Source: a virus
Strand: one strand, 5' to 3'
Length of the DNA: 20,346 nt
IMG/VR virus record: IMGVR_UViG_3300025645_000590
Span: 1 to 20,346 of that record
Shown here in pieces: positions 9,307-20,346 of this stretch. Within the stretch, counting starts at the first letter, position 1. Every line of letters starts with the position of its first letter. The notes under the pieces were generated by a model. The model saw only the letters and a program-made list of their open reading frames with translations, was not told the DNA's origin and did no database searches. Both the position numbers and the translations under genes were made by a program.

Positions 9307-9661
9307 TGCCGTCTAAAATAATATTGATAGGTGGAATGTCTTGCACTTCAGCCTCTTGCTCTTTCCAGCCAGCCTGAGTCTTTAGGTAAAAGATATTAGC
9401 GGCAACATTACCTGCTTTAGCCAATTGAATTAAGTTAGACCCCATACTAGCGCACTGTTTAACTCTGCCCTTTTTATAAGCGTCAGAAACTTCGGGCTGT
9501 CGTTCTTCAATAGCCCGCAAGGTTGTTTCGGAAATACTAAAGTAATCAGCGATTTGGCCTTTAGTTAATACAGCCGCCAATGCCTCTAATTGAGTTATTT
9601 GCTCTGGCGAAAACTCAATAATTGGTCTACCCCCGCCATCACCTTGATTGCCTTTTTTCAT
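9281..9661 (-). CDS. terS: Terminase small subunit
   Basis: This 126-residue protein sits immediately upstream of the large subunit. It begins MKKGNQGDGGGRPIIEFSPE, with a predicted helix-turn-helix in residues 33-54 (LTKGQIADYFSISETTLRAIEER), followed by helices carrying YKKGRVKQCASMGSNLIQLAKAG and NIFYLKTQAGWKE. The pattern of an HTH, then a helix ending in 'L-K-x-x-x-G-W' is frequent in small terminase subunits that recognise the packaging start and form a ring. The ATG overlaps the stop of the Mom-like gene by 4 bases (ATGA). Assignment rests on position plus the HTH and 'FYLKTQAGW' pattern; a general HTH regulator is the less likely alternative. Confidence 0.85.
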   Translation of the reverse strand: MKKGNQGDGGGRPIIEFSPEQITQLEALAAVLTKGQIADYFSISETTLRAIEERQPEVSDAYKKGRVKQCASMGSNLIQLAKAGNVAANIFYLKTQAGWKEQEAEVQDIPPINIILDGNAINQTSD

Positions 9662-10371: not shown

Positions 10372-10978
10372 TATTTTTTAACCAATCAGTGCAAATAAAA
10401 GTTACTGCGTTCCCATTGCTGTTATCGTTTAAACTGCTGTCTGCTAAAGGGTTGGTTCTTGCCAGCATTACAGCGTCATCAACAATTGCGACTTGCTCAT
10501 CATGCAAAGTAAAAGTTTTCTTTTGATACGGCTCTTTTTCTCCTGACGCAATATCAGGAAAAATAGATTCCGAATCGCTGTCAAATAAAAGGTCATTTAA
10601 AAAATCATCATCAAAGCCAAGCAAATCAATGTCAATATCAAGCTCTGACAACCTATCTACCTCAATTCGTAACGCTTCAAAATCCCAACCTGCGTTCATG
10701 GCTAACTGGTTATCTGCTATAACGTATGCTTTTCTCTGGGCCTCTGAGAAGCCTTGTAAGGCAATTGTGGGAACAGTGTCCATACCTAGCAACTGAGCAG
10801 CTTGAAGCCGCCCATGCCCTGCTATAATACCGTTATCCTCGTCTATTAGGATCGGGTTAGTGAAGCCGAACTCTTTTATGCTGGCAGCGACCTGCTGTAC
10901 TTGTTTCTCACTGTGCGTTCTTGAGTTGTTAGAATAAGGGATTAGCTCCCCCGTTTTCTTCCATTCAATAGATTCCAT
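10364..10978 (-). CDS. ParB/Srx-domain protein
   Basis: This 204-residue protein has an N-terminal ParB-like domain: LIPYSNNSRTHSEKQVQQVA near residues 12-31, FGFTNPILID at 37-46, and the phosphate-binding IIAGHGRLQAA at 51-61. A region YVIADNQLAMNAGWD follows near residue 90. The central part is acidic, and the C-terminal 70 residues carry FTLHDEQVAIVDDAVMLA and NGNAVTFICTDWLKN, a tail I recall from ParB-like phage proteins found near DNA methylases. In other phages such proteins pair with methyltransferases; here the partner is the Mom-like gene, with an 8-base overlap. A role in targeting the modification is possible. Nicking or NTP-binding activity, known in ParB families, is not shown here. 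Confidence 0.85.
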   Translation of the reverse strand: MESIEWKKTGELIPYSNNSRTHSEKQVQQVAASIKEFGFTNPILIDEDNGIIAGHGRLQAAQLLGMDTVPTIALQGFSEAQRKAYVIADNQLAMNAGWDFEALRIEVDRLSELDIDIDLLGFDDDFLNDLLFDSDSESIFPDIASGEKEPYQKKTFTLHDEQVAIVDDAVMLARTNPLADSSLNDNSNGNAVTFICTDWLKNNG

Positions 10979-11232
10979 TATTGCTCCGTCCCGAATATCT
11001 CTTCTGCCATTGCTGCAAACTCTCTGTAACCTTCATAAGGTTCGATAGCTGATAGCTCATCTACCATGTTAGCAACACCATCCTGCCAGTCGATAAGCTC
11101 TTCTCTGATCTTATGCCTTTGGACATCTGTAGTCATTAACGATTCAATAATCGCATCAAAGCGGATTATCTCGTCGTTTAATTCCCAGTCGAAGCAGTCT
11201 TCAAGTGATTTAGTAAGGTTTAATTGATCCAT
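10978..11232 (-). CDS. Unknown acidic protein, first gene of the late unit
   Basis: This 84-residue acidic, mostly helical protein begins MDQLNLTKSLEDCFDWELND and ends FAAMAEEIFGTEQ. I do not recognise a family. It starts with an AGGGGTG ribosome binding site and ATG just downstream of candidate promoters, and its stop overlaps the ParB-like start as TAATG. As the first gene of the modification and packaging unit it could be an accessory factor, but nothing in the sequence shows this. Confidence 0.75.
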   Translation of the reverse strand: MDQLNLTKSLEDCFDWELNDEIIRFDAIIESLMTTDVQRHKIREELIDWQDGVANMVDELSAIEPYEGYREFAAMAEEIFGTEQ

Positions 11233-11258
11233 GTGACACCCCTAATGTCAGTGAACTA

Positions 11259-11292
11259 GCGGCATTGTGCATGGTTTTTACTATAATGTAAA
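11259..11292 (-). promoter_or_regulatory. Candidate late promoter
   Basis: On the minus strand TTTACA (11292-11287, 5/6 match to the -35 consensus) is separated by 17 bases from CACAAT (11269-11264, 4/6 match to the -10). Transcription would start about 25 bases before the AGGGGTG ribosome binding site and ATG at 11232. The -10 lies in a 10-base direct repeat, ACAATGCCGC, which also occurs at 11389-11398. The call is by eye only. Confidence 0.4.
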
Positions 11293-11361
11293 CTAGCTAA
11301 GGTCGTCGGCAGCGACTGCGCCAAGCGAAAGAATTACAAAAACTATCATGTAAATTATCAC
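11293..11361 (-). CDS. Possible 22-residue hydrophobic leader or membrane peptide
   Basis: A GTG at 11361-11359 is preceded by AAGGGGG with a 6-base spacer. It opens a 22-codon frame that begins MIIYMIVFVILSLGAVA and ends ADDLS before TAG. The peptide looks like a signal sequence or a single membrane helix, with A-V-A-A as a possible cleavage site. It lies in the control region between the early terminator and the late genes. It may be a toxin-like micropeptide, a leader peptide or chance. The ribosome binding site and the amino acid composition are the only support. Confidence 0.35.
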   Translation of the reverse strand: MIIYMIVFVILSLGAVAADDLS

Positions 11362-11388
11362 TGTTTGCCCCCTTGTTGGTAAGTTAGG

Positions 11389-11399
11389 GCGGCATTGTA
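11389..11399 (-). promoter_or_regulatory. Second copy of ACAATGCCGC repeat with a TACAAT -10-like box
   Basis: The minus-strand motif TACAAT (11399-11394) has a 5/6 match to a -10 box and runs into the direct repeat ACAATGCCGC, shared with 11259-11268. The -35 region (TTCCGA at 17 bases) is weak, so if this is a promoter it would need an activator. Confidence 0.25.
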
Positions 11400-11464
11400 T
11401 AGATAACCAGATATGATCGGAAATGACAGTTTATTATTTAGTTTATACCATTAATGATATGTAC

Positions 11465-11493
11465 AGTTTCGGTGTGCAATAATCACTGAAACT
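11465..11493 (-). repeat. Inverted repeat, possible operator
   Basis: Ten-base arms (AGTTTCGGTG and CACTGAAACT) with one mismatch flank a 9-base spacer, upstream of the candidate late promoters. Such a symmetric site could bind a dimeric regulator of late transcription. The two arms could also form an RNA hairpin. Confidence 0.4.
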
Positions 11494-11530
11494 ACCTGAA
11501 TGCAGACTGCAATGTACATTTTAATGTATA

Positions 11531-11570
11531 AAAAAACCCCCCAGCCAAGTACAAATCGGTCTGAGGGGTT
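11531..11570 (-). terminator. Rho-independent terminator of the early transcript
   Basis: The minus strand shows AACCCCTCAG and CTGGGGGGTT as a 10-pair stem with one G-U and a 16-base loop, followed by a run of T (six in total, two shared with the stem). It lies between the leftward early genes and the control region of the late genes. Confidence 0.88.
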
Positions 11571-11729
11571 GAGGGTTAGGCTCGCAACGACATGAAACGC
11601 GCCTAGAAAATAGTAGCCCGTATCGGCTCCCCAGTGGGCTATTCTGGGTCAAAAGGTTAAGGAGACCTTGGCCTGATCTGTCTTGCCACAGTAGATCACG
11701 CTGATCGGAAGGGAATATGAAACCCTCGG
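11571..11729 (-). ncRNA. Structured non-coding segment, possible small RNA
   Basis: No credible reading frame is found here on either strand. On the minus strand three hairpins follow one another, with arms TGATCT/AGATCA (11698-11674), AAGGT/ACCTT (11669-11653) and TAGCCC/GGGCTA (11641-11614), and these lead straight into the terminator at 11570-11531. The whole reads like the 3' part of a roughly 200-base structured RNA, or a long 3' UTR. It is not a tRNA: no acceptor, anticodon or T-arm pattern fits. Function is unknown. Confidence 0.4.
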
Positions 11730-11921
11730 CTAGTAAATTATAACCTGATAAATAACAAAAGCAGCTAAAAAAGCGGTCATTACTGCAAAATGTAATCTAT
11801 AAACTACCACTGGCTCAGTGATCCACTCCCTGAACCTGCTGGCCTTTGCCTCAATGTAAGATTGCCTGATAGCTTTGTCTGCATACTTGTTAGCCTCATT
11901 GATTAGCGATTTAACGTCCAT
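11730..11921 (-). CDS. Small single-pass membrane protein, unknown
   Basis: This 63-residue protein has a charged helical N-terminal part (MDVKSLINEANKYADKAIRQ) and one hydrophobic segment at residues 42-62 (LHFAVMTAFLAAFVIYQVII), probably a membrane anchor with the N-terminus in the cytoplasm. It starts inside TGATG at the end of the upstream gene and is the last gene before the early terminator. I do not recognise a family. Single-helix phage proteins of this kind may act in superinfection exclusion or lysis control, but nothing here shows this. Confidence 0.7.
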   Translation of the reverse strand: MDVKSLINEANKYADKAIRQSYIEAKASRFREWITEPVVVYRLHFAVMTAFLAAFVIYQVIIY

Positions 11922-12376
11922 CAGTGGCTCCCTAGAAGTAATCTGTCTAAGTGGTTAAGGTCTTGGAAAGAATCCATTACAAGCTCTTCCATACTAGGCT
12001 CAAGATACAGGTATATTTGTTGCCTTATCTCTTCAAGAAAATCTGGGGTATCCAGTATGTCCTCAAAGTCGTCAAGCGCCTCAGAAAGATAAGCATCGTT
12101 ATCCACATCCTTAGCATTTCTCTCGGCAGCATCGCGGAACATAGCAGCAGCCATCCTAGATGTAGCATCCTCGCTGTAGATAGCCTCTAGGGCCAGCAGA
12201 CGCTTATCGCTAACTGTGTGCGGGAATACGTCATCCATCCATGTAGGGTGAGTGATTAACCAAAGAGCTATAAGTCCGTCTTTGGTTGCATCTGGTAGTT
12301 CCTGATAGCTACCCTCCCATAGTGGGGTTTCATCGCGTATCAGACCTACAGCATCATTCAGCACTTTATAAGACAT
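11921..12376 (-). CDS. Unknown acidic helical protein
   Basis: The 151-residue protein begins MSYKVLNDAVGLIRDETPLW and is rich in Asp and Glu, with predicted helices throughout (EALDDFEDILDTPDFLEEIRQ). I do not recognise a family. I take the ATG at 12376 because it overlaps the stop of the small membrane protein gene upstream as TAATG with GGGGGTG at the right distance. An in-frame GTG two codons earlier is covered by that ribosome binding site. It is followed with a 1-base overlap by another small membrane protein. Confidence 0.75.
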   Translation of the reverse strand: MSYKVLNDAVGLIRDETPLWEGSYQELPDATKDGLIALWLITHPTWMDDVFPHTVSDKRLLALEAIYSEDATSRMAAAMFRDAAERNAKDVDNDAYLSEALDDFEDILDTPDFLEEIRQQIYLYLEPSMEELVMDSFQDLNHLDRLLLGSH

Positions 12377-12543
12377 TAGCACACCCCCAGATTAACGCAG
12401 TCGCTGTATTCCATATTACCGACAATACTTAACAAAATTAAAAGGGCCATAGATGCCACGAAGAAGACTCTGGCTTCGGCAATATCCTCGCGCTTGTTCT
12501 CGCGGGATTTGATATCTTTTAAACAACATTCATTGATTTTCAT
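12376..12543 (-). CDS. 55-residue single-pass membrane protein
   Basis: This small gene has a strong ribosome binding site, AAGGAG (12555-12550), 6 bases before the ATG. The peptide begins MKINECCLKDIKSRENKRED, has one hydrophobic segment at about residues 27-43 (FFVASMALLILLSIVG), and ends YSDCVNLGVC. The charge pattern suggests a cytoplasmic N-terminus. The stop overlaps the next gene's ATG as TAATG. The four cysteines at the two ends are unusual. No family recognised. Confidence 0.75.
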   Translation of the reverse strand: MKINECCLKDIKSRENKREDIAEARVFFVASMALLILLSIVGNMEYSDCVNLGVC

Positions 12544-12559
12544 ATTATTCTCCTTAGTT

Positions 12560-12575
12560 GCCCCCCGTAGGGGGC
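12560..12575 (-). other. UACG-loop hairpin before the membrane protein gene
   Basis: The minus strand has a perfect 6-pair GCCCCC/GGGGGC stem closing TACG, a UNCG-type tetraloop, 8 bases after the stop of the 52-residue gene and just before AAGGAG. There is no U tract, so it is more likely an mRNA stability or translation element than a terminator. Confidence 0.6.
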
Positions 12576-12582
12576 GGTTTGA

Positions 12583-12741
12583 TTATTCCCCTAAAAAAAT
12601 AAGCGCATCTTCAGCGTGATCGAATGACTCAACTACATCGCCTGTTTCACTTATAAAAATAACATACTTACCTGCAAGCATATAATCGTCAATATGATCA
12701 GAAGCAGGATTAATTGGAAAATATTTAAGTTGTAATTTCAT
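12583..12741 (-). CDS. Unknown 52-residue protein
   Basis: A 52-codon frame begins MKLQLKYFPINPASDHIDDY and ends SFDHAEDALIFLGE. It has an AAAGG-type ribosome binding site 10 bases before the ATG. The short alternating strands (KYVIFISETGDVVESF) followed by a helix fit a small beta-beta-alpha protein. The peptide is acidic. No family recognised. It is preceded by about 100 bases without a gene, so it may begin a separate transcript. Confidence 0.65.
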   Translation of the reverse strand: MKLQLKYFPINPASDHIDDYMLAGKYVIFISETGDVVESFDHAEDALIFLGE

Positions 12742-12850
12742 TTGTTTAATACCTTTGTTTTTTGATTGAGGTGTAACAGTACAATGTTATTAACCAAAAG
12801 TAACCCTTTTGTATATATCATTATGGAATAAAGGATTTGTTCTTATAACT
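12742..12850 (-). other. Short intergenic gap with an inverted repeat
   Basis: This gap lies between ninG and the 52-residue gene. It holds a 6-base inverted repeat with CAAAAG and CTTTTG arms (12795-12811) and an AT-rich stretch on its right. It may hold a promoter or operator for the downstream genes, but I see no clear -35/-10 pair. Confidence 0.35.
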
Positions 12851-13282
12851 TTACATCTCACCTATTCGCCACTCTTGATCCTTGATCTGCTCCTTTAGTT
12901 GACAGGCAAACTGAATAACTTGTTCTCTGTCAAACTTAGGTGATGCCCTCCAAGCGAGACGCTCCATAGCCTTGACCCTGCACTCTCCGTAGGTATCAAC
13001 CATCCACTGCCTGTATCTCAGGACGTAGTGGGCCTGCTTCATGCCCCACAGGTTACAGCTAGGGCATTGGGGGTGGATGTTTTCCTCAAATAGCTTAAAG
13101 ACGGTTCTGCCTCTAGGTATGAAATGGCCGCCCTGCATGGCCTTGTAGTGGTCTATCTTGCCGCAAGTAACGCACTGGCAGTATCCGTTATCATCGCTTG
13201 CCTTCAGACGCACAAGACGTTGTAGGAGCTTTGCGGCCTTCTCTACCTCCTGAGCTACAGTGGTCTTTTTACGCTTCGGCAT
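12851..13282 (-). CDS. ninG: NinG-like recombination protein
   Basis: This 143-residue protein belongs to the lambda NinG/Rap family, which cleaves recombination intermediates (Holliday and D-loop structures) in phage recombination. It has a basic N-terminus (MPKRKKTTVAQEVEKAAKLL), CQCVTC with Cys at 35, 37 and 40, the block MQGGHFIPRG at 49-58, and NIHPQCPSCN at 68-77 with Cys73 and Cys76. These form a zinc-binding, HNH-like core. The C-terminus has helices ERLAWRASPKFDREQVIQF. The ATG overlaps the upstream gene by 14 bases. Cys and His motifs are complete, so the protein should be active. NinB occurs in the same unit, which supports a lambda-like recombination toolkit. Confidence 0.92.
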   Translation of the reverse strand: MPKRKKTTVAQEVEKAAKLLQRLVRLKASDDNGYCQCVTCGKIDHYKAMQGGHFIPRGRTVFKLFEENIHPQCPSCNLWGMKQAHYVLRYRQWMVDTYGECRVKAMERLAWRASPKFDREQVIQFACQLKEQIKDQEWRIGEM

Positions 13283-13466
13283 CTACTATATCCAAATATT
13301 TGTCGGTAAAGTCATAGCCAGACGCTTGCAGGAATGACTGTATATGCTCCAGCATCTCAGGAAGGGTGAGGTTGTGGCTTTGAACTGTATACTCTATGAG
13401 TACAGGGTGGTTTACAAAACTCGAATTGTAGGGGTAATTTGTAAACTTGTAAGCTGGCTCAGTCAT
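13269..13466 (-). CDS. Unknown 65-residue protein
   Basis: The protein begins MTEPAYKFTNYPYNSSFVNH and has an amphipathic helix SHNLTLPEMLEHIQSFLQAS in its second half, then an acidic end DKYLDIVDAEA. No family is recognised. It overlaps the DUF3310 gene upstream by 8 bases and ninG downstream by 14, so it is translated with both. Confidence 0.7.
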   Translation of the reverse strand: MTEPAYKFTNYPYNSSFVNHPVLIEYTVQSHNLTLPEMLEHIQSFLQASGYDFTDKYLDIVDAEA

Positions 13467-13671
13467 CTTTAATTTCTCGCTCGATCAGGAAGTCAACGTA
13501 GTGCTTTATCTTTCTGAGAGACTCTACCCCGCCTTTATCCTTCCAGCGCGTGATGTACTTCACAATATTCCCCTCACAAAAATCCATCTCATTAGCCATT
13601 ATGTACTCGATAGGCTGGATCGCTTTCTTTTTGTAGTGGTCGCCACCTACTTGATTTTCTAGTGCTTTCAT
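13459..13671 (-). CDS. DUF3310 protein (T7 gp1.7-like)
   Basis: The 70-residue protein carries the whole DUF3310 signature: VGGDHYKKKAIQPIEYI near residues 8-24, then DFCEGNIVKYITRWKDKGG at 31-49 and LRKIKHYVDFLIERE after it. T7 gp1.7, in the same family, is a nucleotide kinase involved in phage nucleotide metabolism; many other family members have no assigned activity. It starts by overlapping the upstream stop (ATGA). The family is firm; enzymatic activity is inferred at most. Confidence 0.88.
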   Translation of the reverse strand: MKALENQVGGDHYKKKAIQPIEYIMANEMDFCEGNIVKYITRWKDKGGVESLRKIKHYVDFLIEREIKDD

Positions 13672-13847
13672 TCGTAGTCCTCTTCTTCAAATATCTCAAT
13701 CTCACAAGGCATCCCAATGTTACAGTGAGCGCAAATCCCGTAAGCATTGCCATCATTGCCAATCCAATACTCAAGACCGTTACCACACTTACAAAAAGAC
13801 TTAGCAGCAGTGACTCCATTCTTGGGGAAATTAATAACATTGCTCAT
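13668..13847 (-). CDS. Zinc-ribbon-like 59-residue protein
   Basis: A 59-codon frame starts MSNVINFPKNGVTAAKSFCK and ends EIFEEEDYE. It has Cys19-x-Cys21 and Cys39-x-x-Cys42 with a further Cys48, a pattern fitting a small zinc ribbon that might bind nucleic acid or protein. Both ends overlap neighbours by ATGA: the start overlaps the phosphoesterase stop, and the stop overlaps the DUF3310 start. AAGGTAGG precedes the ATG. A longer frame on the same strand in another register is a shadow because it lacks this coupling and has no plausible composition. The phage-encoded zinc ribbon could be a regulator; function unknown. Confidence 0.8.
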   Translation of the reverse strand: MSNVINFPKNGVTAAKSFCKCGNGLEYWIGNDGNAYGICAHCNIGMPCEIEIFEEEDYE

Positions 13848-15013
13848 TGGCCTACCTTAATTTTGACGCGGGAATCTTCTCCACTGTCTTTGTGATAAAC
13901 CACAGCAGTCATTGAACGCTCTGCCCCGTAGCCAGAATCTGAGTGCCATTGATCGGTGGCGGTCAGGCTGCCCCAATGCTCAAAGTGCATAGACCCCACT
14001 TCACGCGCTGTATGATGGTGGATATGCCCCAGGTGGCAGTATCTATTCTTCGACTGGCTCCACTGATTATCCAGATTCTTAATCACTGCCTGGAGTATCT
14101 GTTCATGCTTAATCCTATCGCCATGATGGAATACGAACAGATTGTTGTGCCACTGATAGTGTATAAACTTAGAATAGTTAGGAACTACGTTGACTCGCGG
14201 CTCTTGATCGTACAGAAGCTCTAGACAGCTAGACAGGTGGCAGGCCATGTCGTGATCGTGATTGCCCCTAACATTGATTACAACAACCTGCTCATGGGTC
14301 TCCAGCATCTTGCTGATAAGCACTTTAAATAGCCTGCCAGCGAGCTTAAATGTTCTTGATATGCGACTATCGACATCAACTGGAGTGCCTTTAGTAGTCG
14401 TGTTAAAGCTAGAGTCGGCATGGAAGAAATCACCTACATTGAGTAGAACACCAACCTCAGCATTGCCTACCCTGTTTGATAGCCTGGCCGTTGAGTCTAT
14501 TAGTATCTGGGTGGCTATCTTGATGTCCCAATCATCTGAATCCATCTTAGTTTCGCTATCCGCGAGCATCCCAAAGTGGTGGTCGCCAATCATATACATG
14601 GCTAGGTAGTCAGAGTTTACAGATTTAGGTTCTTTTGTGGGTTTCATAAACCCTTTGAGATCGTCGGTCATGCCATCCATCATGGCTTCGATCTTGGCTT
14701 TCATATCGCGCTTCTGAGGCTCTTGAATCACCCACTGTAACGCTACAGTGCCATCCTCTTTGTAAGCAGTGGAGATTCTCTTTGCATCGAACCCTTCTGC
14801 GGTCTGATGGATTAGGTCTCTGTGTGGGGATACACCCTGACTAGCAGCATACTTCTCCAACCTCCTGAGCATAACGTCGATAGTTCGCCTGCCGCATTTT
14901 AACTTCTTCGATGCCTTGTTTGCCGATCCAAACTCAATTACTGCGTCTAATACTTCGTGATGTCTTTCGGTGGTTGCGAATTCCTTTAATACTCTTGGGT
15001 CGATCTTACTCAC
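13844..15013 (-). CDS. HTH-metallophosphoesterase
   Basis: This 389-residue protein joins two domains. Residues 20-66 look like a helix-turn-helix (ANKASKKLKCGRRTIDVMLR, then ASQGVSPHRDL), typical of a phage winged HTH fused to nucleases. From about 135 on is a calcineurin-like phosphoesterase with all metal motifs: GDHH at 143-146, GDFFH at 194-198, GNHDHD at 250-255, HHGD at 296-299 and GHIH at 329-332. Together these bind two metal ions. The start is GTG at 15013, which overlaps the NinB stop as TAGTG, with AGGAGG upstream. It lies among recombination genes, so a DNA or nucleotide substrate is likely. A role like SbcD or a phage DNA-end nuclease is possible; the substrate is not known. Confidence 0.88.
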   Translation of the reverse strand: MSKIDPRVLKEFATTERHHEVLDAVIEFGSANKASKKLKCGRRTIDVMLRRLEKYAASQGVSPHRDLIHQTAEGFDAKRISTAYKEDGTVALQWVIQEPQKRDMKAKIEAMMDGMTDDLKGFMKPTKEPKSVNSDYLAMYMIGDHHFGMLADSETKMDSDDWDIKIATQILIDSTARLSNRVGNAEVGVLLNVGDFFHADSSFNTTTKGTPVDVDSRISRTFKLAGRLFKVLISKMLETHEQVVVINVRGNHDHDMACHLSSCLELLYDQEPRVNVVPNYSKFIHYQWHNNLFVFHHGDRIKHEQILQAVIKNLDNQWSQSKNRYCHLGHIHHHTAREVGSMHFEHWGSLTATDQWHSDSGYGAERSMTAVVYHKDSGEDSRVKIKVGQ

Positions 15014-15471
15014 TACGCCTCCTGCTGGGCTTGTAGCTCGGCATACTCACTGTCTGCGGGTATTGATAACCGAATGCCCTGCTTGGTAGCCCAATGATAG
15101 ACGTTATCAAGAAAGTGTACAAATTCGCCTTTTGTTAACTTGCTGGTGCTTTTTACTTGCTCTGGGATGTGCTGGTTACCAATCGAGTAACTAGCAGTTC
15201 CTAAAAACCGCTTTTTTAACCACAGCTTCCATACCTCGGCAGGCTCTTCGTGATCAATCTTGTGGCCCTTGTCTTCCATTGCGTTAGCTATCTCCCTGTA
15301 CCAGATATGGGACATAGCATTCTGGCTTAGGCTTCTAGGGTTTTCATAAGGGTGTAGCTTGACTGCCAAAGGCGTGCTGTAGTCCCAGCCTTGCATCCGT
15401 TTAATAATATGAGGCAGCCTTTTCTCTAACTCTTCTTTGCTGCTTACCTTTACATGATCGCCCTGAGTCAC
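15013..15471 (-). CDS. ninB: NinB-like recombination protein
   Basis: This protein matches the lambda NinB/Orf family of single-strand DNA-binding recombination mediators. Motifs are NPRSLSQNAMSHIWYREIA, then WKLWLKKRFLG, then STSKLTKGEFVHFLDNVYHW, then TKQGIRLSIP. The S-L-x-Q-N block and the T-K-x-E-F-x-x-x-L block are the two best marks of the family. I start at the GTG at 15471, which overlaps the upstream stop as GTGA and has GGGTG a few bases upstream. A GTG at 15489 is also in frame but has no ribosome binding site. Downstream, its stop overlaps the phosphoesterase start. The C-terminus DSEYAELQAQQEA is acidic. Confidence 0.85.
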   Translation of the reverse strand: MTQGDHVKVSSKEELEKRLPHIIKRMQGWDYSTPLAVKLHPYENPRSLSQNAMSHIWYREIANAMEDKGHKIDHEEPAEVWKLWLKKRFLGTASYSIGNQHIPEQVKSTSKLTKGEFVHFLDNVYHWATKQGIRLSIPADSEYAELQAQQEA

Positions 15472-15785
15472 AGCTTCACCCGTAACCACTTAGCCATTAA
15501 GCGTTCTGAACTGTTTTCTAGCCTGCTGGCTGTCCTGACTCTTTCTCTCGCTGCCCGATCATAACCCAAGTTATTTTTCTGGAAAGCAAAAGTACCTTTT
15601 AAGTGTTTAGGCTCACAGTATTGAGCGCCATAAAGCCTGCCCTTAAGGGTGCTGTATTTAATCTCACTCTCATTTGAATCATTGCAAACCTTTACATACT
15701 CAGCAATCGTGTAGCACTTGCCGTTTTGCAGTATAGGATGCTCTCCCTTAAACTCTACTAACCTTTTTGCATTCTTGCTACGCAT
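15468..15785 (-). CDS. Unknown basic protein
   Basis: This 105-residue protein begins MRSKNAKRLVEFKGEHPILQ and is basic throughout, ending ERLMAKWLRVKL. A middle part, YTIAEYVKVCNDSNESEIKY, may be a helix-turn-helix of the kind that reads short DNA sequences, followed by STLKGRLYGAQYC. No family is recognised. It overlaps the replication-like gene upstream by 8 bases and ninB downstream by 4 bases. A DNA-binding regulator is a guess from charge and the 'TIAEYVK' segment. Confidence 0.7.
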   Translation of the reverse strand: MRSKNAKRLVEFKGEHPILQNGKCYTIAEYVKVCNDSNESEIKYSTLKGRLYGAQYCEPKHLKGTFAFQKNNLGYDRAARERVRTASRLENSSERLMAKWLRVKL

Positions 15786-16185
15786 TCTTCAATTCTCCGT
15801 CCCAGTAAAAACCGTATCTATTTAAATAAACCTGCTGCATCATTATTTTTTCTTCCCCTGATAAAAAGCTAACGTCAGCCAAACTTTCATCGATAGGCCT
15901 ACTACGTATACTAGCCGACCTTCTTCTATACTTTGCTGCAAACTCTGCTTCTTGTGACTTTTGTATCTTAGTAGATTCACCGCCACGTTCTTCGGCAGTA
16001 TTAAGCCACCGCTGGCAAAAACTTTGTATGCCTCCTTTTGTTTTGCGCTTTTTAGGGTTTGCGTCACACCACAAATCCATCTTGACTAATTCTCTGTCAA
16101 CATTGACCTTACCCTTGTAGTGTTCTTTCCACTTAATGACCAGTTCGTCAGATGGCTCCCAATTTTCACCATTATTTAATAACAT
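15778..16185 (-). CDS. Replication-associated protein (helicase-loader-like domain)
   Basis: This 135-residue protein has an N-terminal block, NWEPSDELVIKWKEHY, and then VDRELVKMDLWCDANPKKRK and GGIQSFCQRWLNTAEERGG. The spacing W-x-x-A-N-P-x-K-R-K-T-x-x-G-x-x-x-F-x-x-x-W-L-x-x-A is the C-terminal signature of many phage replication initiators and DnaT-like proteins. Here it stands alone, without the usual N-terminal winged helix. The C-terminal third is basic, then acidic. It begins inside TAATG of the gene upstream, with GGGGGTGA as ribosome binding site. A primosome or helicase-loading role fits the motif and its place ahead of recombination genes. Confidence 0.75.
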   Translation of the reverse strand: MLLNNGENWEPSDELVIKWKEHYKGKVNVDRELVKMDLWCDANPKKRKTKGGIQSFCQRWLNTAEERGGESTKIQKSQEAEFAAKYRRRSASIRSRPIDESLADVSFLSGEEKIMMQQVYLNRYGFYWDGELKNA

Positions 16186-16481
16186 TATTCACCCCCGTGA
16201 TAGCTATTCTTTCTAGTGCGGAAACTAAACAGATTGCAATGCTCTGGATAATCTTGAACAAACTTTCTTGCGTAGTGACTGATCCAGCCGTCGTCTATCT
16301 TAAACTGGCTGTCAGATTCCTCAATCATAGTCTCCCAGCGGATACGGTGAAAGATATTCTTTGCAGAATAATATGACCTTCTGGCTGCTACCTGCAATGC
16401 AAACTCCACAAACATATCATATATCTGAGGGTTGTCTTGATGGTGAGTTATAAAGTTTTCTTGTGACCATTTACCGTTCAT
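16185..16481 (-). CDS. Conserved phage protein of unknown function
   Basis: This 98-residue protein begins MNGKWSQENFITHHQDNPQI, has NPQIYDMFVEFALQVAARR, then IRWETMIEESDSQFKIDDGW and ISHYARKFVQDYPEHCNLF. I recall this order (N-P-x-I-Y-x-x-F, then I-R-W-E-T, then Y-A-R-K-F) from phage genomes next to replication genes, without a known function. The ATG has a strong ribosome binding site in the leader GACTGTAGGAGGTCAA, which is also used by the Sak3-like gene. It overlaps the downstream gene as TAATG. Confidence 0.75.
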   Translation of the reverse strand: MNGKWSQENFITHHQDNPQIYDMFVEFALQVAARRSYYSAKNIFHRIRWETMIEESDSQFKIDDGWISHYARKFVQDYPEHCNLFSFRTRKNSYHGGE

Positions 16482-16503
16482 GTTGACCTCCTACAGTCAG
16501 TGA

Positions 16504-16785
16504 TTAATACTTTTTACAGGTGTATAAATACTCTTTGCCTTCATCAAGTTCATCGATAAATAATTTTACAAGTTTCCTGAACTCTTTGTTTTGAACCAAA
16601 CACTGCTGAAAAATGTTATGTAAAGTCCAACCAGTAATCTCTACTGATCCATACCAAGTCTCTATGCTGGCTCTTGCTGAATATGTTCTATTAGGCATTT
16701 TGACGACAGTGTTGCGAATGTCTTGTTCCCTAATACTAAACTGAGCATCTTTATCATTCTGGATGCCATTTACTGTAATTCCCAT
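16504..16785 (-). CDS. Unknown protein
   Basis: This 93-residue protein begins MGITVNGIQNDKDAQFSIRE and ends GKEYLYTCKKY. A beta-rich middle (TVVKMPNRTYSARASIETWY) is followed by a helical part (FRKLVKLFIDELDEGK). No family recognised. It has an AGGAG ribosome binding site 6 bases before the ATG, and a GC-rich inverted repeat lies just upstream of that (16799-16816). It is separated from its neighbours by gaps, so it may start its own transcript. Confidence 0.7.
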   Translation of the reverse strand: MGITVNGIQNDKDAQFSIREQDIRNTVVKMPNRTYSARASIETWYGSVEITGWTLHNIFQQCLVQNKEFRKLVKLFIDELDEGKEYLYTCKKY

Positions 16786-16798
16786 TTTGTTCTCCTAT

Positions 16799-16816
16799 GG
16801 CTCGGCAAGCCTCGCC
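16799..16816 (-). repeat. GC-rich inverted repeat before the ribosome binding site
   Basis: The minus-strand segment reads GGCGAGGCTTGCCGAGCC, in which GGC and GCC triplets pair around tandem GA mismatches. The stem would lie directly before the ATAGGAG ribosome binding site of the next gene and could affect its translation. Confidence 0.4.
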
Positions 16817-17131
16817 TTGTTATTGATAAATTATTTTTTTTTAAACTTTCTTTAAGATGATCCAACCCTTTACACTTAACAAAGCATAATTTACAAATCT
16901 AAGGGCTTAAAGCAACTTAGTGACTTAATCGTATCCGTATTTAGAATCAGTAGCAGTTCCGTTGCCCTTGCGCCTAGACGCATTAATCGTTATTTCTTGC
17001 TCGGCAGTCAAACCAATCAAGAGGTGCTAATAGAGGGGTCACTCTCGTTCATGGGTTACAAATTCCCAATCCACACACCCGAATACTTTTTGTACCTTAT
17101 TCGTTCCAATATTAAAAGTAAACAGAAAAGG
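16817..17131. other. Gene-poor segment of about 315 bases
   Basis: No full-size gene is seen. On the minus strand there are two tiny coupled frames at 17017-17052 and 16925-17020 (separate entry) and a TTGACT box with an 18-base spacer to ATTAAT (17011-16982), which may be a promoter overlapping them. Runs of A/T occur at 16830-16850. A 61-codon frame on the plus strand has no ribosome binding site and an implausible composition. Confidence 0.5.
16925..17052 (-). CDS. Possible micro-gene in two overlapping frames
   Basis: An ATG at 17052 opens 11 codons (MNESDPSISTS) ending TGA. A TTG overlapping that stop (TTGA) opens a second frame of 31 codons, with LIGLTAEQEITINASRRKGN and then GTATDSKYGYD. 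The second part has an ordinary hydrophilic protein composition, unlike the plus-strand shadow. This could be one small gene of about 43 residues with a -1 shift, two coupled peptides, or chance. No clear Shine-Dalgarno or slippery heptamer is present. Confidence 0.35.
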
Positions 17132-17341
17132 TTACTTATAACCAAATATTATAAAATCAGCTATCGTTATATCCAAAGATAAGCATATAAGCTGGATGGT
17201 ATGTATCTTTAAGTTTTTGCTTTTACGCCAGCGCAATACCTGCTGCGGTGAGGTGTTAGCTATCTTCGCAAGCTGTCGGCTGTTTACGCCTTTGCTGTTT
17301 TGTGCGGCAATTAAGCATTTGCCAGTATCGATTAATTCCAT
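17132..17341 (-). CDS. Small HTH transcriptional regulator (Cro/CI-like)
   Basis: The 69-residue protein has a helix-turn-helix in residues 19-45: VNSRQLAKIANTSPQQVLRW followed by RKSKNLKIHTIQLICLSL. The pattern SRQLAKIANTS-x-x-x-V-x-x-W is that of an XRE/Cro-type regulator, and the C-terminus DITIADFIIFG is the usual last helix. It is probably a dimeric DNA-binding protein controlling the early or late genes. It lies within the early unit, in a locus with more non-coding DNA than its neighbours. An AAGG box upstream of the ATG is weak. Confidence 0.82.
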   Translation of the reverse strand: MELIDTGKCLIAAQNSKGVNSRQLAKIANTSPQQVLRWRKSKNLKIHTIQLICLSLDITIADFIIFGYK

Positions 17342-17404
17342 GATCTCAAACCTTGTGATATATTAATTAGGTCGGTTCCCCCGATCGACAACCTCCTATG
17401 GTTT
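17342..17404 (-). promoter_or_regulatory. Leader of the HTH gene with an unused Shine-Dalgarno
   Basis: The minus strand carries TAGGAGG (17397-17391), a near-perfect Shine-Dalgarno, but no ATG or GTG follows at a normal distance; only a TTG lies almost on top of it. About 50 bases further is the HTH start. A CGATCG palindrome and GTCG/CGAC arms are also present. It may be a leader peptide, an operator or a relic. Confidence 0.35.
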
Positions 17405-17428
17405 GCCCCCCGAAAGGGGGGCTTTTTT
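17405..17428 (+). terminator. Rho-independent terminator facing the plus strand
   Basis: GCCCCCC and GGGGGGC form a perfect 7-pair stem closed by a GAAA tetraloop, followed by six T on the plus strand. On the minus strand the A run precedes the stem and no T run follows, so it works best for rightward transcripts. No plus-strand gene feeds it. Confidence 0.8.
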
Positions 17429-17431
17429 AGC

Positions 17432-17728
17432 CTAGAACGGTATATCTTCATCCAACTGCTCAATGCTCATATCGGCCTGCTTTGCAGGTGCTGCTGCCTG
17501 ACCATCGGTAAAGAACACTTTAACATTCCCCAGAATAGGCGTTTGCACATTAGCATCGCGTTCTTCTTTGGTGGTTGACTGGCTGATAAAGCCGTTGTTC
17601 TCGTACTGGTCTTGCTGATCTGTATCCACAAAGGTTGTCAGGTCAAGATATGTCCCCTTCGCCCCTTTATACAATCGTGACTTGTCTATCTTGGTTACAT
17701 CAATTCTTACAGATAATCCTACTTTCAT
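17432..17728 (-). CDS. ssb: Single-stranded DNA-binding protein (SSB-like)
   Basis: The 98-residue protein starts MKVGLSVRIDVTKIDKSRLY and has a beta-rich core with KGAKGTYLDLTTFVD and PILGNVKVFFTDG. The end is an Ala-rich linker followed by an acidic tip, LDEDIPF, matching the C-terminal tail (D-x-I-P-F) of bacterial SSB that binds partner proteins. That tip, in a protein next to an exonuclease and an annealing protein, strongly suggests an SSB for phage replication and recombination. It is shorter than E. coli SSB. It overlaps the exonuclease stop as ATGA, and a hairpin follows its stop. Confidence 0.85.
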   Translation of the reverse strand: MKVGLSVRIDVTKIDKSRLYKGAKGTYLDLTTFVDTDQQDQYENNGFISQSTTKEERDANVQTPILGNVKVFFTDGQAAAPAKQADMSIEQLDEDIPF

Positions 17729-18336
17729 TTTAACTTCTCCACTTGGTTTAAAATTACATTGACGGCCTTGGTTACTTCATCGGCCAATTTTTTAATAAAT
17801 CCTTCGTCTCGGCAAAATGTAACCAAAACAGGAGGAATCTGGGGGTGAAATGCAAAAGCATCCCAAGATGCTGCACCAGTCACTAGCATACAACCTTGTA
17901 TTTGCTGGTAATAAGCCTTGCCCAAAGATTGTGGGTCAAGGCTATATTTAACCATTGTCTTTGCTGCTGGACATTTAATCTCAAGCCCAGTCATATAGTT
18001 TGGGTTGTGATAAATGATGCCATCGGGCGAGCAACCAAACTCTTTGCTATCGTCAAGAATAAACCCATGCTCAGTCACTTTATAGCCAGTGATATACTCA
18101 TACGCCTCTCTTGCTTCTGGCTCAAGTTCAGTTCCGCGCTGCATGTGTTCATTGGTGTAAAAAGGTTCAGATTTACCTGTTAGGCGCTCCGCAATTAATT
18201 CATGGATATAATTATCAGCAGATGTAGAAGGCTTGCCAGTCTGCGTTATTAGCTTGGCAAAGTTACTTGCTGAAGGTTTACCCAGTCGTGCGGCAAACCA
18301 TTCCTCAGTGCCTTGTTCGTGATCTAAAATTATCAT
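17725..18336 (-). CDS. YqaJ/lambda-exonuclease-like recombination nuclease
   Basis: This predicted 203-residue nuclease of the PD-(D/E)xK superfamily digests double-stranded DNA ends to give single strands for the annealing protein. With the chosen start, HEQGTEEWFAARLGKPSAS is at residues 6-24, RGTELEPEAREAYE at 67-80, GCSPDGI at 101-107 and LEIKCP at 118-123, giving Asp105, Glu119 and Lys121 as the catalytic core; YYQQIQGCMLVTG follows. I chose ATG 18336 because GAGG lies 6 bases upstream; two earlier ATGs (18363, 18348) have none. It overlaps the Cys-rich gene by 32 bases and the SSB gene by 4. It most likely works with the Sak3-like protein. Confidence 0.9.
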   Translation of the reverse strand: MIILDHEQGTEEWFAARLGKPSASNFAKLITQTGKPSTSADNYIHELIAERLTGKSEPFYTNEHMQRGTELEPEAREAYEYITGYKVTEHGFILDDSKEFGCSPDGIIYHNPNYMTGLEIKCPAAKTMVKYSLDPQSLGKAYYQQIQGCMLVTGAASWDAFAFHPQIPPVLVTFCRDEGFIKKLADEVTKAVNVILNQVEKLK

Positions 18337-18535
18337 GCTCGACCTCATTTGCAATTTTGTCATGAAATTTCTTGAAATATTCCGCAGTTGGCGTATACGC
18401 TTGGACTAAAATAGCGCAATCAACACATGAAGATTCCAATATATATGCACAGTCAGGATCGTCAGATGATCTTTGATATGCCCCCAATGCGTCATCACAC
18501 ATCGGGCATATCAGGCTAACAATTTTCTTGTTCAT
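18305..18535 (-). CDS. Small Cys-rich (zinc-binding) protein
   Basis: This 76-residue protein begins MNKKIVSLICPMCDDALGAY and has Cys10-x-x-Cys13 and Cys37-x-x-Cys40, a classic zinc-ribbon spacing, with an extra Cys29. The C-terminus is basic (DNFRSRTRH). It sits between the Sak3-like gene (ATGA overlap) and the exonuclease gene (32-base overlap), so it is probably made with both. It may bind nucleic acid or a partner in recombination; no family recognised. Confidence 0.75.
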   Translation of the reverse strand: MNKKIVSLICPMCDDALGAYQRSSDDPDCAYILESSCVDCAILVQAYTPTAEYFKKFHDKIANEVEHDNFRSRTRH

Positions 18536-19110
18536 CCATACACCCTGCGCTTGTTACGCAAAGCGTGCATAGCCCTGTCAAACTGCAAAGCAAGTAGTTT
18601 GCTTGGATTTTCGCACTTAAAATGATTACAAAATGCGGCAACATCAGCATCACTTTCTTCAATCATAGCTTTAAGCTCTTTAGCTTGATCCTCAGTGATT
18701 ATTGCATTAGCGACAACAGGGTTAATATCTTCTCCTGCGTATATGTAGTGGCCTAACCCGAACATTGCGAAGCACTTAACTAAACAGCGCATCTTACTGG
18801 AGTTGATAGCAAACTTATCAGGGTTTGCGATAGCCTTGTTACGATGATCCATTACAGGTAGCCACATGTGCCGCATCATCATCTGATCTTCCTCTGAGCC
18901 AGTGTGAATGTGGACCACGCAACTTATTTCAACGGTGCCTGTATCCTCGCATTTATCTTCTTCGAAATAGTAATGCAGATCAGGATAATGCTCCATCATC
19001 GTTCCGTAAGCCCAAGCCCACGAAAGGTAAGATAGATTGCCTTTCTTCTCGATATGGTTAGATACATCAATAGCAGATAGGGTCTGCCAGACCTCTTTAG
19101 ATAAACTCAC
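18532..19110 (-). CDS. Sak3-like (DUF1071) single-strand annealing protein
   Basis: The 192-residue protein carries the DUF1071 N-terminus VWQTLSAIDVSNHIEKKGNL and YLSWAWAYG (near 28-36), then the middle block FAINSSKMRCLVKCFAMFGL and GHYIYAGED near 110-125. DUF1071/Sak3 proteins are phage single-strand annealing proteins of the Rad52-like group and pair complementary strands exposed by a partner exonuclease. The gene starts with GTG at 19110, which has a perfect AGGAGGT at the right distance and overlaps the gene upstream by 14 bases. An exonuclease, an SSB and NinB/NinG in the same unit complete the recombination kit. Confidence 0.88.
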   Translation of the reverse strand: MSLSKEVWQTLSAIDVSNHIEKKGNLSYLSWAWAYGTMMEHYPDLHYYFEEDKCEDTGTVEISCVVHIHTGSEEDQMMMRHMWLPVMDHRNKAIANPDKFAINSSKMRCLVKCFAMFGLGHYIYAGEDINPVVANAIITEDQAKELKAMIEESDADVAAFCNHFKCENPSKLLALQFDRAMHALRNKRRVYG

Positions 19111-19255
19111 TTTGACCTCCTACAGTCTGTTCCTTTGTGTACTGCTCACCATAACCTGCATAGTAAGCCTCTGATTGCCCGTCTAGGGCTTGATAACCTA
19201 GAATGCAGTCGTACTCACCGCGCTCCAGATCGTTTAATTCGTTGATATTATTCAT
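19097..19255 (-). CDS. Unknown 52-residue protein
   Basis: A 52-codon frame begins MNNINELNDLERGEYDCILG and ends with TVGGQSEFI. The composition, with a DCILGYQALDGQSEAYYAG core and GYGEQY, is that of a real acidic protein. An AGGT box lies 8 bases before the ATG. The end overlaps the Sak3-like gene by 14 bases and contains its ribosome binding site. No family recognised, but the coupling supports it. Confidence 0.75.
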   Translation of the reverse strand: MNNINELNDLERGEYDCILGYQALDGQSEAYYAGYGEQYTKEQTVGGQSEFI

Positions 19256-19259
19256 ATTA

Positions 19260-19493
19260 TTAAACCTGATAATGTTCAGCTATTTCTTCCCAATTAATAC
19301 CTTCAAAGTCAAGAAAGTCCATAACAACTACATCGAGATGCTTTGTTTCTAACTCAAAATGCTCTAACCATATTTCTTTGATAAAGTCAGCAGTAATTTC
19401 AATATCATCTTCTTTGTAACCATCTAGCAAGCCGCCAAAGTGTAAATTAATAAGCCAAGTGTTTCTGTTAGTCCATCCGTTGTAATCTTGCAT
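19260..19493 (-). CDS. DUF7249-like phage protein, first gene of the early unit
   Basis: This 77-residue protein starts MQDYNGWTNRNTWLINLHFG. The N-G-W-T-N-R-x-T-W-L block is the hallmark of a widespread phage and plasmid family (DUF7249 from memory) without known function. I start at 19493, where AGAAAGGT lies 7 bases upstream. A longer frame from 19526 would begin inside the -10 box of the candidate promoter. The rest is acidic and helical (DIEITADFIKEIWLEHFE). As the first gene after an early promoter it may act soon after infection. Confidence 0.8.
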   Translation of the reverse strand: MQDYNGWTNRNTWLINLHFGGLLDGYKEDDIEITADFIKEIWLEHFELETKHLDVVVMDFLDFEGINWEEIAEHYQV

Positions 19494-19524
19494 TTTTATT
19501 ACCTTTCTTATTGAATGAGGTAAC

Positions 19525-19553
19525 ATTATTGCTCATCTAAATCATAAAGTAAA
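19525..19553 (-). promoter_or_regulatory. Candidate early promoter, sigma70 type
   Basis: The minus strand has TTTACT (4/6 to TTGACA), a 17-base spacer, and AATAAT (5/6 to TATAAT) about 35 bases before the first early gene's ATG, just downstream of the terminator that ends the lysis genes. Spacing and place make it a good start point for the leftward early unit. Confidence 0.55.
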
Positions 19554-19574
19554 CTCTTTTGTTGATTAATATGC

Positions 19575-19599
19575 AAAAAAAAGCCCCAATTAAGGGGCT
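19575..19599 (-). terminator. Rho-independent terminator of the lysis transcript
   Basis: AGCCCC and GGGGCT form a perfect 6-pair stem around a 6-base loop, followed by a run of eight T on the minus strand (19582-19575). It ends transcription from the endolysin gene. Confidence 0.93.
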
Positions 19600-19600
19600 G

Positions 19601-19626
19601 CGGACATAAGTTGCTACTTTGTGTCC
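19601..19626 (-). other. Second hairpin directly after the endolysin stop
   Basis: CGGACA and TGTCCG arms pair, with AAGT/ACTT pairing inside, right after the endolysin stop codon and one base before the terminator stem. The tandem hairpins may shield the lysis mRNA's 3' end or act as a regulator site. Confidence 0.6.
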
Positions 19627-19627
19627 G

Positions 19628-20020
19628 TTAGTACGACCAGATAGAAGGGCAGGGGAAGCCGTCCTCTTCCGTGCAGCCGTCTAGGTGGATGAATCTACCT
19701 GATCCTTTCTGCTGTATACCGATTCTCTGTATACCATGCTTCTGGGCCACTCTAATGATTTCTAAGGCGTTTTCTCCGCTGGCTAGTATATCTACCGCCT
19801 TGCCATGCGTATGCGCTCCTTTGACCTCTTTACGGGCCTCTACGGGGTGTTCTGGAGACCTGTAAGCAGAGGAGAGGGCAAAGCTGAAGCCGCACTCTTC
19901 GCGGATAGCGTTAAGGGTCTTTAGGAAGCCAGGGTCAAAGCCTTGATCGCCTGTGTGCCTGCAAGCCAGTTCTTTAGGCTTGAAGTAGTTCTTTTCTTCT
20001 GTCTTAGGTGATTTAGCCAT
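19628..20020 (-). CDS. Endolysin, peptidase M15A family
   Basis: This 130-residue protein is a single-domain D-Ala-D-Ala-type peptidase that cuts peptide crosslinks in peptidoglycan. It has LSSAYRSPEHPVEARKEV near residues 49-66, then the zinc motif GAHTHGKAVDI at 68-78 (His70 and Asp77), and RFIHLDG near 109-115 with His112 as third ligand. The N-terminus, NYFKPKELACRHTGDQGFDP, is the usual M15A start. No signal peptide or membrane segment is seen, so export depends on the holin. AAGGAAAG precedes the ATG, which lies next to the holin stop. Two hairpins follow the gene. Confidence 0.92.
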   Translation of the reverse strand: MAKSPKTEEKNYFKPKELACRHTGDQGFDPGFLKTLNAIREECGFSFALSSAYRSPEHPVEARKEVKGAHTHGKAVDILASGENALEIIRVAQKHGIQRIGIQQKGSGRFIHLDGCTEEDGFPCPSIWSY

Positions 20021-20021
20021 T

Positions 20022-20346
20022 TTACTTTCCTTCTATGTTCTTAGTCTTTTCAAAGCTACGCATTCCACCAAGCCCTAATAGACCACCAAGTATAGGCATA
20101 AGTGTACCACCATCTGCCTGCGGTATCACAACACCGAACCCAGCAGCAATTGGTGAGATTAAGTAGTTGACTGCAAGGGCAAGGACACAAACCCAGCCTG
20201 TTGCTGGTCGCCAAGAACTTTGGAACCAGTTGCCTTTGGCTTCTGCGGTGTTGAGCGCAACCTGTGCCAGTGCAAGTTCCTGTGCATGTTTATCCGAGAG
20301 GGTGCTGATTTCATGCGCAAGCTGGGCCTTTTGATCTTTGTCCTCC
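20022..20346 (-). CDS. Holin of the three-TM, GTA type, N-terminus cut by window edge
   Basis: The 107 visible C-terminal residues begin in a helical, charged, coiled-coil-like stretch (QKAQLAHEISTLSDKHAQEL) running off the right edge. They then show WFQSSWRPATGWVCVLALAV, a first clear hydrophobic segment, and SPIAAGFGVVIP and LMPILGGLLGLGGMRSFEK, further hydrophobic segments typical of the 'holin of 3TMs, for gene-transfer release' family. The W-R-P-x-T-G-W block is its best mark. It would open the inner membrane so the endolysin can reach the cell wall. The start is not in the window. Confidence 0.85.
   Translation of the reverse strand, partial: EDKDQKAQLAHEISTLSDKHAQELALAQVALNTAEAKGNWFQSSWRPATGWVCVLALAVNYLISPIAAGFGVVIPQADGGTLMPILGGLLGLGGMRSFEKTKNIEGK

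Follow-up and report, generated by a model that had tools for sequence, protein, structure and literature searches.

A candidate anti-Shine-Dalgarno small RNA encoded opposite the early operon of a virus, and a class of ribosome binding sites that matches it

Introduction

A strong transcription terminator that is oriented against the genes around it raises a simple question: whose transcript does it end? The case considered here lies in a 20,346-base virus sequence (the window) that carries genes for a terminase, a Sak annealing protein, a YqaJ exonuclease, a DNA-repair-exonuclease-like protein and a Cro/C1-type helix-turn-helix (HTH) protein. A first-pass annotation had placed a strong plus-strand terminator at 17405-17428 with minus-strand genes nearby, and that description stands: the hairpin has seven G-C pairs, a GAAA loop and a run of six T residues. 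In our best reading the terminator probably belongs to an anti-Shine-Dalgarno phage small RNA (sRNA) that silences a dedicated regulon of early genes.

Results

A one-way terminator against the early operon

The hairpin, with G-C pairs at all seven positions of its stem, headed the list from a terminator scan of positions 8000-20346, and its G+C-rich stem with a T run directly after it has the form of an intrinsic (Rho-independent) terminator. When a strict definition was applied (at least seven pairs, at least six of them G-C, a loop of 3-8 bases and T5 within one base) it was the sole site on either strand of the whole window. A strict site was present in 1 of 300 dinucleotide-preserving shuffles of the window, and a chance origin was rejected. 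On the minus strand the stem at 17405-17422 is followed by CAAACC, not by T, and with no T run beyond the stem on that strand the terminator works one way, for plus-strand transcription. Both of the flanking genes, the ssb-like gene and the HTH gene, lie on the minus strand, and the stop codon of the ssb-like gene begins just past the T6 run with three bases between. We take that gene to be ssb-like from its position and its C-terminal DEDIPF; phrog_24909, the family that it matches, is itself of no known function. Protein family scans gave no family match for the plus-strand open reading frame (ORF) 16997-17182, and the plus-strand ORF 17196-17366 overlaps the HTH gene.

Two other hairpins in the window may be recorded. 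A minus-strand terminator at 19575-19599 (AGCCCCTTAATTGGGGCT followed by T7) lies between ORFs 19628-20020 and 19260-19526. A second C/G-rich hairpin, at 12556-12579 between ORFs 12583-12741 and 12376-12543, is a weak plus-strand terminator and, on the minus strand, stands immediately before an AAGGAG ribosome binding site (RBS).

A putative small RNA gene ends at the terminator

The sequence argues strongly that the terminator at 17405-17428 ends an unannotated, free-standing phage small RNA gene that would be read from the plus strand, opposite to the early operon (Table 1). Along that strand TGnTATATT comes first; about six bases later follows a hairpin (H1) whose loop is rich in C, then AACCUCCUAUGGUUU and the terminator. 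The plus strand from 17371 to 17428 folds with -28.3 kcal/mol (z-score -3.59) and the minus strand from 17369 to 17430 with -26.7 kcal/mol (z-score -2.09).

Table 1. Features of the putative small RNA locus, its neighbours and its predicted targets
Feature	Position	Strand	Details
Small RNA	17371-17428	+	about 58-60 nt, 5' end placed from the -10 element; covariance model 90.8 bits (sequence in training set)
Extended -10 promoter element TGATATATT	17356-17364	+	TGnTAnnnT at fixed position in relatives
H1 hairpin, C-rich loop (CCCCC 17378-17382)	17371-17389	+	compensatory changes; wobble pairs on plus strand only
H2 / seed AACCUCCUAUGGUU with hexaloop UCCUAU 17394-17399	17390-17403	+	small hairpin fold; complementary to RBS class CYRTAGGAGG
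Intrinsic terminator of small RNA	17405-17428	+	GCCCCCC 17405-17411, loop GAAA 17412-17415, GGGGGGC 17416-17422, T6 17423-17428
Cro/C1-type HTH gene	17132-17341	-	PF13443, E 2.6e-8; translation start region adjoins promoter element of small RNA
ssb-like neighbour gene	17432-17728	-	phrog_24909, E 4.3e-10; no Pfam match
YqaJ-type exonuclease gene	17725-18363	-	PF09588, E 4e-29; neighbour used for fetching relatives
sak, Sak-type single-strand annealing protein, predicted target gene	18532-19110	-	PF06378, E 3.4e-40
RBS of sak (AGACUGUAGGAGGUC), predicted target	19114-19128	-	14 contiguous pairs including 3 G-U; seed duplex -17.5 kcal/mol; GACU-GUAGGA-GGUC hairpin fold
RBS of gene 16504-16785 (GAGCCAUAGGAGAAC), predicted target	16789-16803	-	12 contiguous pairs including 2 G-U; seed duplex -17.4 kcal/mol
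RBS of gene 16185-16481 (UGACUGUAGGAGGUC), predicted target	16485-16499	-	13 contiguous pairs including 3 G-U; seed duplex -17.5 kcal/mol

From the matches of a covariance model, 60 entries were picked by hand; they comprise 58 distinct sequences, the window included, and all 58 have TGnTAnnnT at the identical position, with n as T in 31, A in 15, G in six and C in six. Their -10 hexamers are TATATT (44), TATCCT (7), TAGAGT (3), TATTCT (2) and TAATCT (2). No picking entered a further test on the 76 strong model matches (75 loci and the window): the motif was present in all 74 that could be tested, which have 27 distinct upstream stretches, the other two (L008 and L067) being cut at a contig end. 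Such conservation, with n running over all four letters, should be the pattern expected from selection on an extended -10 promoter; since the RBS of the HTH gene adjoins the element on the other strand, the conservation there need not all be the promoter's.

Structure was examined in an alignment, A1, of 38 distinct sequences. These were collected by a fixed seed pattern, so the invariance of the seed in A1 is by construction; unbiased support for conservation of seed and promoter comes from the covariance model matches, the diverged members and the unpicked promoter test. The three-hairpin structure pairs 97.1% of the cells of A1 compared with 87.8% in shuffles, and 61 cells show two-sided changes compared with 19.8; none of 500 shuffles reached either value. 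Sliding the partners by one base lowered pairing to 56.5 and 65.7%. Two measures were weak: pairs with two-sided changes numbered seven compared with 4.9 (reached by 16 of 500 shuffles), and further pair types 14 compared with 14.7 (reached by 452 of 500). In H1 compensatory changes are seen at pair 7-23 (U-A or C-G) and pair 8-22 (C-G, G-C or U-A). The cells of H1 in 35 rows are made up of 178 Watson-Crick and 67 G-U combinations and no A-C; three sequences with a column shift in H1 (L023, L025 and L029) were left out of this strand count and kept in the shuffle test and in covariance model R2. Every wobble thus pairs on the plus strand only, which argues that it is the plus-strand RNA that is under selection. 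The same strand test led us to reject an origin or other DNA-only hairpin.

A promoter of its own, a compact structured RNA and an intrinsic terminator, all predicted here, are what a base-pairing sRNA gene should have. The earlier annotation had seen no rightward gene, which holds for proteins but apparently fails for RNA, and it had supposed a hidden rightward promoter in the 16.8-17.4 kb segment, with which the predicted extended -10 element agrees well. It had also supposed that the terminator ends a non-coding antisense RNA against the HTH regulator. A non-coding RNA does appear to end there; its predicted start lies about 30 bases upstream of the HTH start codon, which makes it antisense to the ssb-HTH leader and not to the HTH coding sequence. 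Shielding of the ssb, exonuclease and sak genes from opposing transcription, a third suggestion, is plausible as a side effect because the RNA ends three bases before the 3' end of ssb, but it leaves the conserved promoter element, H1 and the seed unexplained. That the conserved seed matches the RBSs of other early genes had not been foreseen.

No match at the Rfam gathering cut-off (C4 antisense RNA and other families) was found in the window; the best weak plus-strand overlap with the small RNA was anti-hemB, at 15.3 bits against a cut-off of 49.5.

The putative RNA is widespread in a group of related contigs

In 49 loci fetched through the HTH gene the gap before that gene, wherever it is present, holds a block conserved far beyond the terminator stem. 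Model R2 found the small RNA at E < 1e-4 in 75 of 80 loci fetched via YqaJ alone (in one, L008, in part). Of the five loci without such a match, L065, L075 and L081 stop 70-129 bases past YqaJ, and L021 and L022 are without the RNA there; L022 has a weak model match elsewhere (E 0.0053). Among the HTH-fetched loci the RNA was present in 45 of 49 (L109 in part), the exceptions being two that begin inside the gap (L097 and L098) and two remote HTH genes without the conserved block (L127 and L128). It has been found from sequence in more than 100 contig loci in all; the contigs are related and redundant and counts across them are not independent. Diverged members outside the training alignment were also detected (L007, L010, L027, L045, L068 and L074 among them); in these the H1 stems are quite different, the loop is still C-rich and the seeds are such as AAUCCUAUGG, ACUCCUAUGG and CUCCUAGU. 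In a pattern scan of the loci gathered, all 182 matches, redundant loci included, placed the element near the HTH and/or ssb-like gene and pointing towards it.

No match below E 0.01 was obtained in 85 control sources, namely 80 Venkman-type sister contigs and five isolate phages, where two weak matches had E values of 0.023 and 0.043; these controls were picked via ssb-like or YqaJ similarity and their size differs from that of the test set. Two phages with terminases 53.7% and 52.6% identical to that of the window, Pelagibacter phage HTVC111P and phage DSL-LC06 respectively, gave no model match up to E 0.1. Among named phages there was no DNA match to 15400-19700 and no match to the HTH protein, and for the element itself the matches were all partial, none covering more than 48% of the query; among the matches listed they fell on the terminator part. 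Relatives of the ssb-like gene do occur in Venkman, Vibrio and Flavobacterium phages. Three isolate regions were inspected at the equivalent place: in Venkman and Vibrio 1.265 the terminator there reads the same way as the operon, and in Vibrio 1.074 a short hairpin faces the opposite way with no proper T run after it. In genome collections the element pattern gave no match and the YqaJ protein one remote match (26% identity over part of the protein). Among the matches listed from openly licensed papers no report of such a phage RNA was found.

In some relatives another small-RNA-like element lies about 300 bases beyond the first and on that same strand (L068:6252-6305, L079:4113-4166, L046:1743-1800 and similar); it is weaker, with model E values from 0.0004 to 0.4, and has a T-rich terminator of its own.

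The seed matches ribosome binding sites of early genes

The seed consists of the anti-Shine-Dalgarno core extended by UAUGG, and the UCCUAU hexaloop lies inside ACCUCCUAUGG, which has as its predicted partners the RBSs of three genes, sak, 16785 and 16481. Eight sites in the window offer the seed at least nine contiguous pairs, at least eight of them Watson-Crick. The RBSs of sak (start 19110), 16785 and 16481 account for three of them, each with the start codon 18 bases from the start of the site; the other five are the complement of the RNA itself, a site that spans the start codon of gene 2267, and three sites elsewhere. When all 37 translation starts were compared, the same three RBSs gave the strongest seed duplexes, the next being at -14.0 kcal/mol (15013). 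Full-length cofolding ranked them first, third and fifth, with genes 12543 and 2267 second and fourth, and because of this interleaving the seed-duplex test is to be seen as the more favourable one. A conserved seed complementary to the translation initiation regions of targets, as expected of a base-pairing sRNA, is present with exceptions. In L008, L010 and L027 the RBS of sak is of another type, GGGGAA. A check on targets for the H1 loop gave GGGGAA starts at 60 versus 18 and AGGAG at 224 versus 150, with several of the GGGGAA inside coding sequence.

The RBS of gene 15778-16185 is of a GGGGG type that could pair with the H1 loop, and in relatives gene 15785 often has GGGGAA too.

The RBSs of the relatives differ from those of the controls. 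A T precedes AGGAG at 63 of 114 distinct starts in the relatives, as opposed to 6 of 42 in the five isolate phages. In loci that bear the sRNA the fuller motif CYRTAGGAG (class I) accounts for 129 of the 239 AGGAG-type entries and is present in 18 of 40 gene families. The figures are 1/42 entries and 1/41 families in the isolate phages, and 1/155 entries and 1/57 families in the 80 sister contigs without the RNA; the entries are related, so that Fisher values are not taken as probabilities and the family counts are the fairer ones. The module GAGCCATAGGAG precedes several unrelated genes at one place, where the RBS may have stayed while genes were swapped. A leader, GGCGAGGCTTGCCGAGCCATAGGAG (window 16793-16818, minus strand), is likewise kept before unrelated genes in different contigs.

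Seed and RBS also vary together, a result that rests on two or three lineages. The main group of 28 hand-picked loci has 72 RBS sites for its own seed, 46-60 for seeds that share the core and 13 for the CUCCUAGU seed. The lineage of L074, L077 and L080, whose seed is CUCCUAGU, has ACTAGGAG before sak and before a second gene, and six RBS sites in this group suit its own seed, one the main seed and three the AAACUCCUAUGG seed. The L068 group has five sites for its own seed versus none for the main seed, all at one gene (ACTAGGGG). The swap was not clean in three other groups: the AAACUCCUAUGG group has ten RBS sites for its own seed, fewer than the 13 and 14 that two foreign seeds find there, own and foreign seeds tie at four in the UACUCCUAUGG group, and in the group with the AAAUCCUAUGG seed two of 14 own-seed sites are located at an RBS. 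In L021 and L022, both without the RNA at the usual place, the RBS of sak is GCCGAAGGAGGC; as natural controls for loss of the RNA these two are only suggestive, because L022 keeps one class I RBS (GCTGTAGGAGGC).

Many class I RBSs can form a hairpin that presents the hexaloop RUAGGA. At least three pairs close this loop in 75 of 117, whereas the figure is 6 of 107 for the remaining AGGAG RBSs in those loci and 9 of 148 for the controls; GACU-GUAGGA-GGUC, UUGCU-GUAGGA-GGCAA and GAACU-GUAGGA-GGUUC are examples. Forty of the 117 have one closing pair only, and RBSs of the GAGCCATAGGAG type have the shared sequence without the hairpin. H2 of the small RNA, with its loop UCCUAU, is the mirror of the class I hairpin, and this likeness makes a first contact from loop to loop likely.

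Discussion

Our comparisons support the structure and strand of the RNA, the conserved promoter element and terminator, its spread among relatives and the matched class of RBSs. We propose that transcription from the extended -10 element yields an RNA of about 58-60 nt folded into three hairpins (H1, H2/seed and terminator), which would most likely act in trans on the phage's own mRNAs. Its seed would pair with CYRTAGGAGG RBSs, which are often displayed in a small hairpin's loop; the RBSs of sak, 16785 and 16481 would be the foremost targets, and the pairing would block the entry of ribosomes and so hold down a regulon of early genes. Co-occurrence, position and the seed/RBS swap suggest that the pairing takes place, and the position of the pairing suggests that its outcome is repression; transcription itself, action in trans, timing and any partner of the H1 loop are likewise what we infer. 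With sak among the recombination genes and the RNA running against their operon, the RNA may restrain early genes for as long as its promoter is active; the HTH protein, whose gene starts beside that promoter, is perhaps what shuts it. Early mRNA that reads through has a perfect complement of the RNA between ssb and HTH, and may therefore be cut there or may titrate the RNA.

A wider version of this proposal seems to us possible rather than probable. Many unrelated early genes, with the same RBS mostly presented on a hairpin, would form a translational regulon that is read by the kissing hexaloop of one sRNA (UCCUAU against RUAGGA), perhaps also by UUCCCC of H1 against GGGGAA-type RBSs, with seed and RBS class co-evolving as a translation code private to each lineage. 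If this is true, the RNA would control the translation of many early genes in its own phage, with an RBS class that shows in 18 gene families; it would give a direct test of co-evolution between an sRNA and a whole set of RBSs, and it would offer a compact and portable RBS/sRNA pair.

Other explanations were weighed against the proposed silencing of early genes in trans. The RNA might be real but act in cis only, its transcription or its pairing with the ssb-HTH leader limiting read-through from ssb to HTH in an OOP-like way, with the matches to RBSs incidental. Its place in the ssb-HTH gap, where it is by nature fully complementary to the leader, and a promoter element that adjoins the HTH translation start both accord with this, yet complementarity needs no particular sequence, whereas the stems vary around a conserved promoter element, C-rich loop and seed core; action in cis also leaves unexplained the seed/RBS swap and the matching RBSs, which 18 of 40 gene families have and 1 of 57 in the sister group, and we think this explanation unlikely. 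It is also quite unlikely that the RUAGGA hexaloop hairpins are protein sites, read through the GGA in the loop by a CsrA-like protein or a phage repressor, with H2 merely an antisense copy that perhaps has other targets. In the CsrA layout a GGA is held in a hairpin loop over the Shine-Dalgarno sequence, which is how the class I hairpins are built in 75 of 117 RBSs, and AACCAUAGGAGGUU, the sense copy located between ssb and HTH, is built in this way too. Against a protein, the GAGCCATAGGAG-type RBSs keep the sequence without the hairpin, as pairing would predict, the change of seed to CUCCUAGU in the L074 lineage is matched by changes in the RBSs, and no CsrA-like gene was found among the ten proteins scanned. 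Protein binding and RNA pairing could coexist at these hairpins.

Similarly unlikely, in our estimate, is an RNA that mainly hits host mRNAs or the pool of 30S subunits as a general anti-Shine-Dalgarno mimic. The CCUCC core is that of the 16S anti-Shine-Dalgarno sequence and the alpha-r14/NfeR1 sRNAs of rhizobia act through anti-Shine-Dalgarno motifs (PMC10746234, in excerpt), but a general binder of Shine-Dalgarno sequences does not need the UAUGG extension that the phage RBSs match. A plain terminator or DNA element such as a replication origin hairpin, with no RNA gene, is extremely improbable: two hairpins do stand next to an A+T-rich stretch, but the 67 G-U cells of H1 with no A-C point to selection on one strand as RNA, and a promoter element and a terminator are conserved at the two ends.

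How does the predicted trans-acting RNA compare with known systems? The C4 antisense RNA of P1/P7 is also a phage RNA complementary to a ribosome-binding region; C4 has a single target region and is made from its target's own transcript, and the RNA described here has no Rfam match. An antisense RNA of the OOP type is encoded opposite its target and overlaps the target's coding sequence. The segment 17371-17428 lies between the HTH and ssb-like genes, and in the ORF list of the window no opposite-strand ORF of at least 50 amino acids overlaps it. Like lambda OOP, which has its own promoter, and P22 sar, which blocks initiation of ant translation, it would be a small phage RNA acting as antisense, and it is placed somewhat like OOP; OOP and sar act on one gene each (cII and ant), whereas this RNA matches the RBSs of several unrelated genes (PMC12197685, in excerpt). 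An action in trans, as we presume here, would be shared with PreS of lambda and VpdS of VP882, which are Hfq-bound, PreS with host targets and VpdS with host and phage targets; the excerpts of PMC12197685 describe phage sRNAs that act on single phage genes or on host genes, and for PreS and VpdS no matched class of RBSs across a phage operon.

In manner of action the likeness is to the alpha-r14/NfeR1 sRNAs, in which the stems vary and the anti-Shine-Dalgarno motifs are fixed. The phage RNA shares with them three predicted hairpins, variable stems, fixed unpaired anti-Shine-Dalgarno motifs and pairing at translation initiation regions. The alpha-r14/NfeR1 RNAs are bacterial and carry CCUCCUCCC in each of the three hairpins; ours is a phage RNA with one CCUCCUAUGG seed and a C-rich H1 loop (CCCCC), and the RBSs of the same phage are matched to that seed, unlike the case in alpha-r14/NfeR1 (PMC10746234, in excerpt). 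It is a member of neither alpha-r14/NfeR1 nor OOP and has no Rfam match at the cut-offs; by analogy it appears to work like the former.

A non-coding stretch past the HTH gene, at 16800-17131 on the minus strand, is also conserved. It resembles a structured RNA and has two allelic forms among the relatives. In 21 rows of one form the fold of the sense strand has 37 G-U versus 3 A-C, and that of the opposite strand 27 versus 14; the copy in L088 has no Rfam match up to E 5.
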